NCBI RefSeq assembly: GCF_020966755.1
Contig: NZ_JAJKFT010000002.1
Coordinates: 434,001-498,000 of the forward strand
Source of the DNA: Blastopirellula sediminis
GTDB taxonomy: Bacteria; Planctomycetota; Planctomycetia; Pirellulales; Pirellulaceae
Length of the DNA stretch: 64,000 bases
Reading direction: 5' to 3'
Under the pieces are notes generated by a model. The model did not search any database. It was not told the DNA's origin and saw only the letters and a program-made list of their open reading frames with translations. Made by a program: the position numbers and the translations under genes. Position 1 is the first letter of the stretch. The number at the start of each line of letters is the position of its first letter. Shown here in pieces: positions 31,731-35,623 of this stretch.

Positions 31731-34700
31731 CTAGACGATTTCTTCCATGCTGGTATCTTCCGCAAACACCTGGTCGACATCCTCGTCGGCCAGGTTCTCC
31801 GAATCGGTTGATTCTCCTTCGAGCAAGTCGATCAACGAGAGGACCTCGTCGACATACTCGCTGCTGAAGTAGACCGAGCTGCCGACCATCTCGAAGTATT
31901 CGATTCCGGCCGCCAACACTTGCGAGAACTGCGAGTTGCCGGAGACGACCGCCCGTTGGAACGAGAAGCTGTACGCCGTGAATGGGTTGCCGGCAGGATC
32001 GGTGAAGGCGCTGCCGAACACGACCGAGAAGCTGGTATCCGGCAGCGACCCGCTCAGATCGAAGCTGAAGATCCGCGTCAAATTATTCCAGCGCGGATTG
32101 AGCGGCGTGACGATGCCGGAGATATTCCCGATGACGGTCATCGCCGCCAGGATATCGGAGAGCGGCGCGAATTCGTTCAGCTGCACCTGAAGGGTGAAGT
32201 TGCTGGTGTTGGCGCTAACGACCAGGCCGTCGGAGCTCGGCCCGGTTGCGACGACGTGCGGCGCGATCGTATCTAGCGTCAATGTCAGCTTGCGGGTGAG
32301 CGTCTGACCGAACTCGTCGGTCGCGGTCACGATGACGTGATTCGCTCCTTCGGTCAGCGTCACGTCGAAGCCGTAGCTCGCCCCATTTTCGTACATGCCG
32401 GCGATCATTTGCCCGTCGATCACGCCGTCACCGTTGACGTCAACGGTGACCAGCGCACCCGGCGTGGCGACGCCGCACAGATGCACCATCGCGGTCGAAG
32501 TGATTCCATCGCCGAGAATGCCGGTATCGGAGGCGGGATCCAATTGCGCCGACAAGTAGATCGGCTGCAGCGTGGTGCCGCTCCAAAGGTTACCGGCCAT
32601 ATATTCGATGTCCGATTCGGTCAGAAAACCGTCGAGATCGACATCGAATCGCGAAAGTAAGTAGTTGCTGGCGCTACCGGAGATGCTGGACGCAATCGCG
32701 TGCTCCAAGGCTCTGACGACATTCAGAACACTGACCGTACCGCCCCCTTCCGAATCTCCAGTGAGCAAGGCCTGCAAAATGAAGCTGCCGGTCGTTCCAT
32801 TCTGGCCGGTGACGACGATGTGATAATCGCCGGGAGTCAGGTTGGCCATGACGAAGCTGGAGTTGCCGTCGCTGGGCGTATTTTGCCAGACGATGCTCCG
32901 CGGAACGAGCTGTCCCTGTGAATTAAAAATCAAAACCGCCGCTGGATCGAGCGAACTCCCTCCAGTCGCGATCACCTTCCAGCCGATCTTGATCCCACCT
33001 TCAGCCATGCTGAAGTCGCTGGCCGAAACGGAAATGTCGAACGTCTGCGGCAGTCCCGGAAACTTGATATCGCCCGAGAAGTGGGCGAATACGTGCCCCG
33101 ATTCCGATTCGTCCTGCGCAAGTTGGATCGCAGGGAGAATGACGTTTTCGGCGCCGGAGTAAACCTCGTGCCCCAGCAAAACGTTCACCTTGCCGGAGGT
33201 GTACTCGTAGGTGACGTTGGTCACCGGGTCGACGTAAGCGGAGCCGTCGATGTTCAGATCGTTGCTGACGCCGCCGGGGGTCAAATCGAGGTCGTGATCA
33301 AGCAACTGTCCCCAGAAGACGAAGAAGCCGCTCGTTCCCCCGGAGTTTGGAACCGACGCCGACTGGGCCATGACGGTATTGCTGATCTCGCGCGTGCCGG
33401 GACGATCGGCGCCGGCCGGCGTAAAGTAACCGTCGCCGTAGGAGACGGTGAAGTTTAGCGCGAGATTGTCATTCGTCGCCCCGGCGCTCGGATCAAGCAA
33501 ATTGTTACCGGAGCCGTCCGCAGTTCGGTAGTCGGTCGAAACGATCGTCGCCAACGTAGGATTGGCGGTCGGCGACGTCCCGGCTCCGCTCAGCAAAAAT
33601 GCGTTGGAGTTCATTCCGGTGATCGACGTGTTTCGCTCGATCAACGACGTCAGCGTGGTCCCTTGGATTAGCGCCAATTCAGCGGCGGTAAACTGACCGT
33701 TTTCAAAGTAAAAGCGGTCGCCGTCCCGAGAGCGTTCAAACTGGTCGGCGATGATCTTCTGGAAGAGAGGACCAACTTGGGCGCCGGCGACGTGATCTTC
33801 GGCGATGCCGCCGACCCATACGTCGATCAAGTCGACGTCACCATAAGCCGCTTCCAAACGCATCGCGACGACAGGATCGGACGTAATCTCGCTGAACGAG
33901 GTGACGGCCGGGAGACCGAAATCAAGCCGCGCCTGGTTATAGCTGGGCAAGCCAAAATCGCGACCGCGCTGAATATTAATTGCGGGCAGGTCGAGTCCGC
34001 CGGCGCCGGGCGGGCCGAACAGGAAGTTCCGCACGTCGTCGATCACGAAAGCGTCGATCTCTTCTGATTGGCTCTGGAACAAACCTCGCAAATAGGGTTC
34101 GATACCGTCATCGGCAACCGCTTGTGGATTGAAGAACGCAAACTTCAGCTCTAGCGATCCGCCAGGTAATGAATCGAGGTTCTCGTCCAGACGCTGGATC
34201 TCACTGAACAACTGCGTGTGTCCAACGCGGTAAGCGGCGCTGGAGAATATTGCGCTCACGGCGGGATCTACCGCGTCATCGTAGCCGGAATACGTCGGCA
34301 AAGCGTTCGTACCAAGCATGATCGGCAGATATTCGTAATAGGTAATCTGCTGCACGATCCCGCCAACCAGGCGGCGCGCTTGCTGGTAGATCTCTTCATC
34401 GGTCAGCGAAGGACTCGCCGTTTTGATTTCGTCGGCCAGGCGATTGTGCTCGCGCACCAGCAGCGTGTGAAGCGACGTGAGAGCGACGTTTTCGTTGGCC
34501 CGCACGTCGCCGCCGACGAACAAGCTCGCTGCGTCGTACGGACCCGCGTTGTCATTGTCGAGCATGCCGTCCGGGAACGTCGCCAGATTGTTGAGCGGCA
34601 GCAGTTCGCCGTCGCTCGTCTTCAGCTTGCCGTCCACAAACGTGCGCAGCGCCGCGGCGCGATCAGCATCGCTCCCATAGACCATGCTCGCGTCGAGGAA

Positions 34701-35129
34701 GCTGGTGATCAGGTTTTGATGTTGCAGCGGATTGGCCACGCTATCGCCGGTCGTCCCATCGTACCGAGCGCGCTGCATCGGTATGGTGACGGTTCCCGTG
34801 TTATACGGATCAAAGTAGGGATCGCCTGCCGGAACGGGAATATTGAAAGAGTCGGTGGGTAAGGCGCTCCAGGGCAACTCGATGGTGAAAAAGCCTTGCG
34901 AGTCGGTCACCGTCATGCGACCAGCCAACTCGACCGGTACGCCTGCGAGCGGCTCGTTGTTCTCGCTGAGGATTTGCCCCGTGATCAACGTGCTGGAGCC
35001 GGCCGGTCCCAGCTCGGTCGCGTCTTCGCCAAGCTGCGCCACGGCGAACATGGCCCGCTGTTCGAGCTGCTCGTATCGAACTTCGGAAACCGTTTCCATC
35101 CAACGTCGGTTTCGGGGTGACCTTCGCAT
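31731..35129 (-). CDS. Giant exported animal-type haem peroxidase with circularly permuted catalytic domain
   Basis: About 1132 residues from ATG 35129 (MRRSPRNRRWMETVSEV); ATG 35195 is an in-frame alternative. YEQLEQRAMFAV near residue 22 is the planctomycete LEPR-like export motif. After a carboxypeptidase-regulatory-like fold (ITGQILSENNEPLAGVPVEL) comes a haem peroxidase: FNIPVPAGDPYFDP, MVYGSDADR, Arg210 and Glu213 in GDVRANE, LREHNR-like LVREHNRLA, proximal His304 in YRVGHT and INIQRGRDFGLPSYN. The segment that should precede all this, YRTADGSGNN to WGQLLDHDLDLTP with Gln608, Asp611 and distal His612, occurs instead after it at 532-618. A pre-peptidase-like beta domain, a dockerin-like repeat (FDVDLDGFLTESD) and Ig-like domains complete the protein. 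All catalytic residues are present. Confidence 0.88.
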   Translation of the reverse strand: MRRSPRNRRWMETVSEVRYEQLEQRAMFAVAQLGEDATELGPAGSSTLITGQILSENNEPLAGVPVELAGRMTVTDSQGFFTIELPWSALPTDSFNIPVPAGDPYFDPYNTGTVTIPMQRARYDGTTGDSVANPLQHQNLITSFLDASMVYGSDADRAAALRTFVDGKLKTSDGELLPLNNLATFPDGMLDNDNAGPYDAASLFVGGDVRANENVALTSLHTLLVREHNRLADEIKTASPSLTDEEIYQQARRLVGGIVQQITYYEYLPIMLGTNALPTYSGYDDAVDPAVSAIFSSAAYRVGHTQLFSEIQRLDENLDSLPGGSLELKFAFFNPQAVADDGIEPYLRGLFQSQSEEIDAFVIDDVRNFLFGPPGAGGLDLPAINIQRGRDFGLPSYNQARLDFGLPAVTSFSEITSDPVVAMRLEAAYGDVDLIDVWVGGIAEDHVAGAQVGPLFQKIIADQFERSRDGDRFYFENGQFTAAELALIQGTTLTSLIERNTSITGMNSNAFLLSGAGTSPTANPTLATIVSTDYRTADGSGNNLLDPSAGATNDNLALNFTVSYGDGYFTPAGADRPGTREISNTVMAQSASVPNSGGTSGFFVFWGQLLDHDLDLTPGGVSNDLNIDGSAYVDPVTNVTYEYTSGKVNVLLGHEVYSGAENVILPAIQLAQDESESGHVFAHFSGDIKFPGLPQTFDISVSASDFSMAEGGIKIGWKVIATGGSSLDPAAVLIFNSQGQLVPRSIVWQNTPSDGNSSFVMANLTPGDYHIVVTGQNGTTGSFILQALLTGDSEGGGTVSVLNVVRALEHAIASSISGSASNYLLSRFDVDLDGFLTESDIEYMAGNLWSGTTLQPIYLSAQLDPASDTGILGDGITSTAMVHLCGVATPGALVTVDVNGDGVIDGQMIAGMYENGASYGFDVTLTEGANHVIVTATDEFGQTLTRKLTLTLDTIAPHVVATGPSSDGLVVSANTSNFTLQVQLNEFAPLSDILAAMTVIGNISGIVTPLNPRWNNLTRIFSFDLSGSLPDTSFSVVFGSAFTDPAGNPFTAYSFSFQRAVVSGNSQFSQVLAAGIEYFEMVGSSVYFSSEYVDEVLSLIDLLEGESTDSENLADEDVDQVFAEDTSMEEIV

Positions 35130-35623
35130 CTGACTTCGCTTCCAATTTTGACTCGGGGAGGACAAACCAGGTGACTCAATCGCAAGCAACTTCATCCGGC
35201 GCGCTGACGCTGCGGATCAAAGTGGGTCAAGAAGCGGGATCGTGACCGTGTGCCGGGAGAGATGGCTCCGCGAACCTGAGAATCAACGACGTTTACCACT
35301 GCGGGAAACATGAAAGCTTCCTCGGCAAAAAAGGGTACGTCTGGGGGGTGTCATATAGAACTGATCATATAAAACCCCTCTTAAGCAAGCAATAGGCTGG
35401 CGGTAATAACCCGCAAATTTTACCTGACATTCCCAACCGCACCATTCACTCGGACTATTGGGGGGAATCAAGAGAGAAGTCGAACCTGAGAAGGCGTTCG
35501 ACCATTCGAGGCGAAATCAGCCTCATTACCTAAGGGCAAACGTGAAGAATGCGTGAAGCTGAGTTCAACGCGGCCGCGATTCGTCAATTCGAACCGCGGC
35601 TCGGCGACGTTGCTGTGAAGCGC
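35130..35623. other. Intergenic region upstream of the peroxidase gene, AT-richer, no gene seen
   Basis: 494 bases without a credible coding frame. The centre (about 35340-35410) is markedly AT-richer than the surroundings and contains a possible promoter reading toward the peroxidase gene. If translation starts at 35195 the region is 66 bases shorter. Confidence 0.5.
35364..35392 (-). promoter_or_regulatory. Possible sigma70-type promoter of the peroxidase gene
   Basis: On the minus strand TTGCTT (35392-35387) is followed after 17 bases by TATGAT (35369-35364). The -10 matches five of six consensus bases, the -35 only three. The leader to ATG 35129 would be about 230 bases. Confidence 0.3.

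Follow-up and report, generated by a model that had tools for sequence, protein, structure and literature searches.

Evidence for a circularly permuted animal-type haem peroxidase nested in a host beta domain of planctomycete proteins

Introduction

Animal-type haem peroxidases carry a distal block followed by a core, an order that is the norm across their superfamily, and the present work concerns a gene of Blastopirellula sediminis whose product carries the same two blocks the other way round. The gene lies in a stretch of 64,000 nucleotides (positions 434,001 to 498,000 of contig NZ_JAJKFT010000002.1, assembly GCF_020966755.1), which is called the window below and to which the nucleotide positions of the gene refer. 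An earlier interpretation of the same DNA, made from its letters alone and here termed the sequence-only reading, had proposed that the encoded peroxidase is circularly permuted.

Among the closest known systems is the peroxidase of Cyanobacterium TDX16 (PDB 8s6c), to which both blocks of the window protein align, with 49% identity in the structural match; 8s6c, however, is in canonical order, and no host domain is known around it. Named with it are the bacterial peroxicins and peroxidockerins, which the available part of PMC4420034 places as families 5 and 6 of the peroxidase-cyclooxygenase superfamily. Myeloperoxidase (MPO) and eosinophil peroxidase (EPO) are built from the same two blocks and undergo a maturation cut (available part of PMC10679500) that would fall, by our mapping, in the loop of the permutation's new ends, but their blocks are in canonical order, and it is proteolysis rather than gene arrangement that breaks the chain. 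The Dictyostelium peroxidase DdPoxA (6erc) shares the distal Gln-His-Arg and proximal His-Asn-Arg triads and, like half of the permuted copies, lacks the ester Asp, according to the part of PMC5787809 consulted; its order, in contrast, is canonical.

Among the open-licence papers listed by our searches, none describes a natural permutation within the myeloperoxidase/cyclooxygenase superfamily or deals with a permuted animal-type peroxidase, in agreement with the sequence-only reading, which knew of none. The string 'permut' is absent from the available part of PMC4420034 and 'peroxidase' from that of PMC12667903, while the grounds on which the consulted part of PMC3779223 sets myeloperoxidase apart as a structural outlier are different ones.

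Block order in the window protein

The following features of the gene carry the argument.

31731..35195, minus strand: whole open reading frame (ORF), 1154 amino acids from an ATG start, with an in-frame Met23 that would give a 1132-residue form
34866..34991, minus strand: first half of a CarboxypepD_reg-like host beta domain, residues 69-110 (PF13620 positions 2-46 of 82)
33591..34853, minus strand: peroxidase core, residues 115-535 (PF03098 positions 107-530; 8s6c residues 89-509)
33537..33590, minus strand: 18-residue linker from the old C-terminus to the old N-terminus, residues 536-553 (from the PDB alignments)
33276..33536, minus strand: distal block, residues 554-640, from YRTADGSGNN to WGQLLDHD (8s6c residues 3-87)
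33102..33260, minus strand: second half of the host beta domain, residues 646-698 (positions 36-102 of our profile A2, E 6.9e-12, the protein's own row being part of A2)

The product passes the cut-off of the Pfam model PF03098 (An_peroxidase) with an E-value of 6.4e-147, its best stretch (residues 115-533) covering profile positions 107-530 and a second stretch adding to the match. Aligned to PDB chains with phmmer, residues 111-537 correspond to residues 89-509 of the 8s6c chain (4.5e-130) and residues 556-640 to residues 3-87 of the same chain (8.3e-13). Because the core matches 8s6c residues 89-509 and the block after it matches residues 3-87, the block order is swapped, and since the core precedes the distal block, contrary to the superfamily norm, the protein is a variant and not an ordinary PF03098 member. 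Elsewhere in this genome the only match is C10:2993743-2995257, a canonical paralogue with the distal block before the core. These alignments support a circular permutation of an animal-type haem peroxidase, cut just before FNIPVPAGD.

The sequence-only reading had placed the second block first and the distal block after it, with the cut in the loop just before FNIPVPAGD, and the Pfam and PDB alignments bear this out within one open frame; its block borders (34847-33591 and 33536-33276, that is residues 117-535 and 554-640) and its linker of about 18 residues were likewise correct. The residues that it listed as kept (Gln608, Asp611, His612, Arg210, Glu213 and His304) are indeed kept, but the numbers fit only a count from Met23; from Met1 they become Gln630, Asp633, His634, Arg232, Glu235 and His326. 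The core holds FNIPVPAGD, Arg232, Glu235, the proximal His326 and NIQRGRD, and the distal block holds Gln630, Asp633, His634 and Asp635.

Recurrence across genomes

Four genomes represent the genus; the swapped gene is present in that of the window and in two congeners, G002 and G003, at 82% and 78% identity to the window protein, and G001 carries the canonical gene only. The congener homologues are open frames of 1135 and 1125 amino acids, and one of the congener genomes is a single contig. Over the 20 kb compared, three upstream neighbours (a small protein, a DUF1559 protein and an AraC-type regulator) are common to G002 and the window, and a downstream sulfatase and a HEAT/cytochrome protein are common to G003 and the window.

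Wider surveys of the family, order and class were evaluated among the matches listed, so that weak permuted copies may be missed. On this basis, 117 of the 241 genomes of the family had any match and 11 had full-length co-linear (permuted) matches, the permuted copy of G066 being cut off by a contig end; no permuted copy outside the family appeared in an order sample of 396 genomes, and a class sample of 397 added G587 and G612, from two other families. A phylum sample of 392 genomes gave no further permuted copy. In total, planctomycetes hold at least 18 copies with both blocks in at least 13 genomes, plus one cut by a contig end, and G055 alone has four. The sequence-only reading had suggested looking for the same order in relatives, and congeners and further planctomycete genomes do carry it. 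Separate queries with the core and the distal block recovered one core followed by one distal block in all 18 planctomycete ORFs.

A scan of named genomes, covering the best 80 of 506 confirmed relatives, yielded 49 canonical, 15 permuted, 5 tandem double and 10 third-order loci and 1 with the core only. Nine of the 15 permuted loci are contigs already known, and the six new ones are all cyanobacterial (L125, L128, L129, L131, L132 and L133), from Nodosilinea, Vasconcelosia, two Leptolyngbya and two contigs of one Phormidesmis strain; the contigs of L132 and L133, from one strain, start inside the core, so that the 5' end is cut.

Several candidates proved canonical on checking: G274:C35 and G167, whose alignments extended beyond query position 440, overhung by chance, and G978 and G925 had been suspected from long frames. 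Other overhanging matches (L038, L097) were judged by the distal-first order at the locus.

Phylogeny

In a tree built from the core only, from which L080, a clipped copy of L046, was dropped, all 19 permuted rows fall on one side of a branch (support 100/99) that separates them from 43 canonical rows, the canonical rows being best matches to the permuted query and not a random sample. When cyanobacteria and other phyla are included, 25 permuted rows stay together (100/99). The cyanobacterial rows sit inside the planctomycete set, beside G587 (99/92), and because of this position a transfer of the permuted peroxidase between phyla is suggested. The 84-row tree, reduced to 15 of 43 and 24 of 49 canonical rows and built without nine duplicate contigs, gives weak support (66/45) to the split of the first permuted clade plus the tandem peroxidases from the rest.

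Nesting in a host domain

The permuted peroxidase is nested in a CarboxypepD_reg-like beta domain in 17 of the 18 planctomycete copies, the flanks being two halves of one domain (type A) in 15 and of a related domain (type B) in two, L044 and L047. In the window protein, the first half (residues 69-110) matches profile A2 at positions 1-49 (E 2.6e-15), where its own row is one of the eight in the profile; in congeners outside A2, the second half is matched at 1.5e-8 and 2.1e-11. Pfam lacks a match for the second half, and the host was therefore defined by homology to uninterrupted copies. With the flanks joined, the CarboxypepD_reg match still stopped short of the second half, and since Pfam scans could not prove the nesting, it is the uninterrupted homologues that do so.

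A type A profile built from eight joined flanks gave, in 11 genomes, seven contiguous full-length copies (positions 1-104 of 104, E 6.2e-32 to 2.2e-25; one each in G011 and G210, five in G065), whereas proteins with the peroxidase match it in two pieces, one on either side of the insert. In G001 the profile has no match. No peroxidase was found in the stretches examined around the seven uninterrupted copies, the empty-site ORFs L093 and L094 being covered in part. When L043, with the peroxidase, is aligned to L088, without it, residues 11-551 pair with 6-543 and residues 1068-1740 with 530-1199, the latter at 52% identity. Among bearing and empty pairs aligned on both sides, 74 of 98 have 466-540 residues between the two alignments in the bearing protein and at most 11 in the empty one, with no pair from L044, L047 or L049.

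For type B, the ORFs first examined contained no empty site; in the family survey, 13 of 239 genomes then gave 23 copies that run unbroken through at least positions 3-90 of 91, contiguity being judged across the insertion site. The two type B bearing proteins are split at 1-26/24-91 and 1-27/23-91, and in them (L044:1-5817 and L047:7488-19958) the peroxidase occupies another loop of the related beta domain than in the other copies. Both hosts are occupied, and the same permuted domain therefore stands at two insertion sites. With the empty sites as control, the permuted peroxidase is nested in a host domain.

Active site and predicted structure

With residues mapped through myeloperoxidase numbering, the distal Gln, the distal His and the calcium-site Asp are invariant in the permuted planctomycete rows (18 of 18 each), as are the Arg, the proximal His and the Arg of NIQRGRD (19 of 19 each). 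The window protein retains all the covalent-link residues, Asp633 and Glu235 included. The five cyanobacterial copies examined keep the Gln and the His-Asp pair and have the ester Asp replaced. Nine copies that lack the ester Asp (L016, L017, L020, L021, L046, L048, L050, L052 and L109) are candidates for natural single-ester enzymes.

AlphaFold2 predicts residues 58-735 with high confidence, at a predicted local distance difference test score (pLDDT) of 90.3 and a predicted template modelling score (pTM) of 0.89. The alignment supplied had 58 rows (the window protein, 17 other permuted regions, 20 canonical cores and 20 canonical distal fragments), L051, which holds X, being omitted. The distal helix is well predicted, with 8 of 9 ten-residue blocks at pLDDT 90 or above, and so are both host halves, the ten-residue blocks of the second lying at 87-91; the model of the canonical paralogue has a pLDDT of 83.3. 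In Foldseek, the best match of the predicted fold is 8s6c (E 3.3e-41), followed by DdPoxA and myeloperoxidases, in an alignment that follows chain order, covers the core and is silent on the distal block.

Other block orders

The ten third-order loci (L163, L166, L168, L170, L179, L181, L183, L185, L189 and L197) run from NPRQ through the core to the distal block and then to FNIPVPAGD and the next ~40 residues; nearly all are named Verrucomicrobiota, L185 being titled only 'bacterium'. In the tree they are a separate clade (100/99) that branches deep within the canonical sequences, and forcing them together with the first permuted family is rejected by an approximately unbiased (AU) test run after the tree was seen (p-AU 0.004). 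To judge from the trees, this is a second, independent permutation in the Verrucomicrobiota. Upstream of the peroxidase the flank looks like a Glucodextran_B-like domain that is short of its final strand, and downstream of it like a strand-like tail, which is suggestive of a similar nesting; joining these flanks raises the Glucodextran_B match by only 0.4 to 1.3 bits, and no uninterrupted copy of this host was found in the nine genomes searched.

Tandem canonical peroxidases (distal-core-distal-core) account for five of the 80 loci (L140, L156, L160, L169 and L177), all from Bacteroidota (Saprospiraceae, Lewinellaceae). They could represent the kind of intermediate from which a permutation arises, as distinct from its shown ancestor.

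Proteins with YD repeats

Pfam was run on eight of the 18 permuted ORFs (the window protein, L057, L049, L041, L042, L043, L047 and L114). In the larger homologues L041, L042, L043 and L114, the host with its peroxidase is followed by YD/RHS repeats; dockerin is present in L042, L043 and L114, and Big domains in L041, L043 and L114. L047, which lacks RHS repeats, carries Ig, PKD and cadherin-like domains, and the window protein and its G003 homologue are shorter carriers of the cassette in which Ig-like domains but no YD repeats are present. By regular expression, some YD motifs occur in 7 of 19 ORFs, many of which are truncated at contig ends.

Bacterial teneurin-like proteins have the order BIG-TTR-TIP-FN-plug-NHL-YD-shell (PMC13018210, available part, from whose text 'peroxidase' and 'planctomycet' are absent). 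The four giant permuted proteins resemble them in placing the host before YD/RHS repeats, whereas the window protein lacks the repeats and hence a YD-shell downstream. Against the Pfam teneurin TTR model PF25020, the host scores weakly (E 0.0036-0.13, below the cut-off), and three of the seven uninterrupted host copies match it, at E 0.03-0.11.

Remaining features of the window protein

Outside the cassette and its host, the protein has the following features.

35043..35075, minus strand: N-terminal motif YEQLEQRAMFA, residues 41-51 (from the sequence)
32598..32705, minus strand: dockerin/EF-hand-like stretch, residues 831-866 (PF00404 E 0.03, below the Pfam cut-off)
32268..32552, minus strand: bacterial Ig-like domain Big_13, residues 882-976 (PF19077 E 2.9e-9)
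31959..32273, minus strand: bacterial Ig-like domain Big_5, residues 975-1079 (PF13205 E 2.7e-4, below the cut-off)

The N-terminal motif resembles the planctomycete 'LEPR-XLL' motif, and similar LE-x-R motifs lie near the start of several canonical paralogues. Big_5 is better matched in G003 (PF13205 E 3e-10). NCBIfam has no informative name for the window protein, which is probably a multi-domain haem peroxidase, presumably exported.

Discussion

On block order, recurrence across genomes, a single clade, nesting with empty sites, a conserved active site and a confident predicted fold, we regard it as highly probable that the window gene encodes a haem peroxidase with a truly circularly permuted catalytic domain that is set inside another domain. 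The sequence-only reading was right about the permutation itself and overlooked the nesting, the occurrence of at least two permutations and the loss of the ester Asp in half of the copies.

The permutation may have arisen through a duplication whose outer parts were later lost. A short linker joins the old N- and C-termini, and the loop that connects the distal helix to FNIPVPAGD is where the new ends lie; coming from one loop, they are expected to be close together. Because cutting one loop would bring both ends together, the enzyme of ~525 residues could sit in a host, replacing a hairpin of the CarboxypepD_reg-like beta sandwich without breaking it. Inserted domains do have unusually close ends, with a median of 14.3 against 29.8 Å (available part of PMC13114784). 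In mature EPO, Gln229 and His233 belong to a light chain that ends at 244/245, the heavy chain beginning at 250/251, and MPO matures in the same way (available part of PMC10679500); by our own mapping, this would be the same connecting loop, and a break there would be tolerated because EPO and MPO maturation cleaves it. The haem pocket is most likely rebuilt, with Gln630, His634 and Arg232 on the distal side, His326 on the proximal side and ester links via Asp633 and Glu235, for a putative H2O2-driven oxidation of halides, pseudohalides or organic substrates outside the cytoplasm.

Some observations weigh against this reading. One copy of the 18 (in G049, L051:6786-9986) has no recognisable host halves at the peroxidase borders, the second host half matches no Pfam model even in uninterrupted copies, and inserted domains usually have 50-200 residues (available part of PMC13114784), the peroxidase being far larger. 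Residues of the covalent haem link also vary across the family: the ester Asp is present in 9 of 18 permuted against 43 of 43 canonical rows, the ester Glu in 17 of 19 against 42 of 43, and the proximal Asn in 12 of 19 against 41 of 43.

The losses of the ester Asp (9/18) and of the proximal Asn (7/19) would suit a real fold that now serves as a structural or binding module without peroxidase activity; yet the distal His, Gln and Arg and the proximal His are invariant in the planctomycete rows, the window protein keeps every such residue, and DdPoxA is active, with a lower redox potential, although it lacks the ester Asp (available part of PMC5787809), so that we consider a loss of activity unlikely. 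It is quite improbable that tandem canonical peroxidases lost their outer parts and left these two blocks behind as pieces that do not form one site: true tandems exist at 5 of the 80 loci as a possible kind of intermediate, but all 18 planctomycete ORFs of the permuted kind combine a single core with a single distal block, the catalytic residues survive in both blocks, as would hardly be expected of a dead remnant over such divergence, and the model is one confident, compact unit. A related candidate, a tandem canonical array read across its middle, was rejected, as no distal block lies upstream of the core in the 18 planctomycete frames. A domain swap, with each distal block filling out the haem pocket of an adjacent chain, might be allowed by the 18-residue linker but has nothing direct in its favour, and the high pTM of the monomer model argues for a very low probability. 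Misassembly or binning artefacts can be practically dismissed, many homologues coming from fragmented metagenome assemblies but the swap recurring in independent ones, with canonical homologues outside the permuted clade, in two congeners (one a single contig) with neighbours conserved on one side each, and with the same cut and similar linkers in 13 genomes and in cyanobacteria.

A nested, permuted peroxidase may have a wider meaning, which we put forward tentatively, at somewhat short of an even chance: permutation would be a repeated route that makes a 520-residue haem enzyme an insertable cassette, set into two loops of related beta domains in planctomycetes and cyanobacteria, in some cases within teneurin-like YD-repeat proteins, and the Verrucomicrobiota, with a cut ~40 residues further on and the last hairpin of a Glucodextran_B-like domain as site, would represent an independent event. 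The result is a conserved permuted family, with a second permutation elsewhere, for which the sequences suggest a structural reason, namely nesting in hosts. It offers a natural before-and-after series on which an old idea can be tested, that permutation frees a large domain for insertion by bringing its ends together, and the presence of one or two haem-ester residues in different members provides a set of natural variants. A further consequence is that teneurin-like YD-repeat proteins of bacteria are seen to contain a myeloperoxidase-like enzyme, and there, if the cassette reading is true, the cassette may arm a giant surface or secreted protein with an oxidising enzyme.

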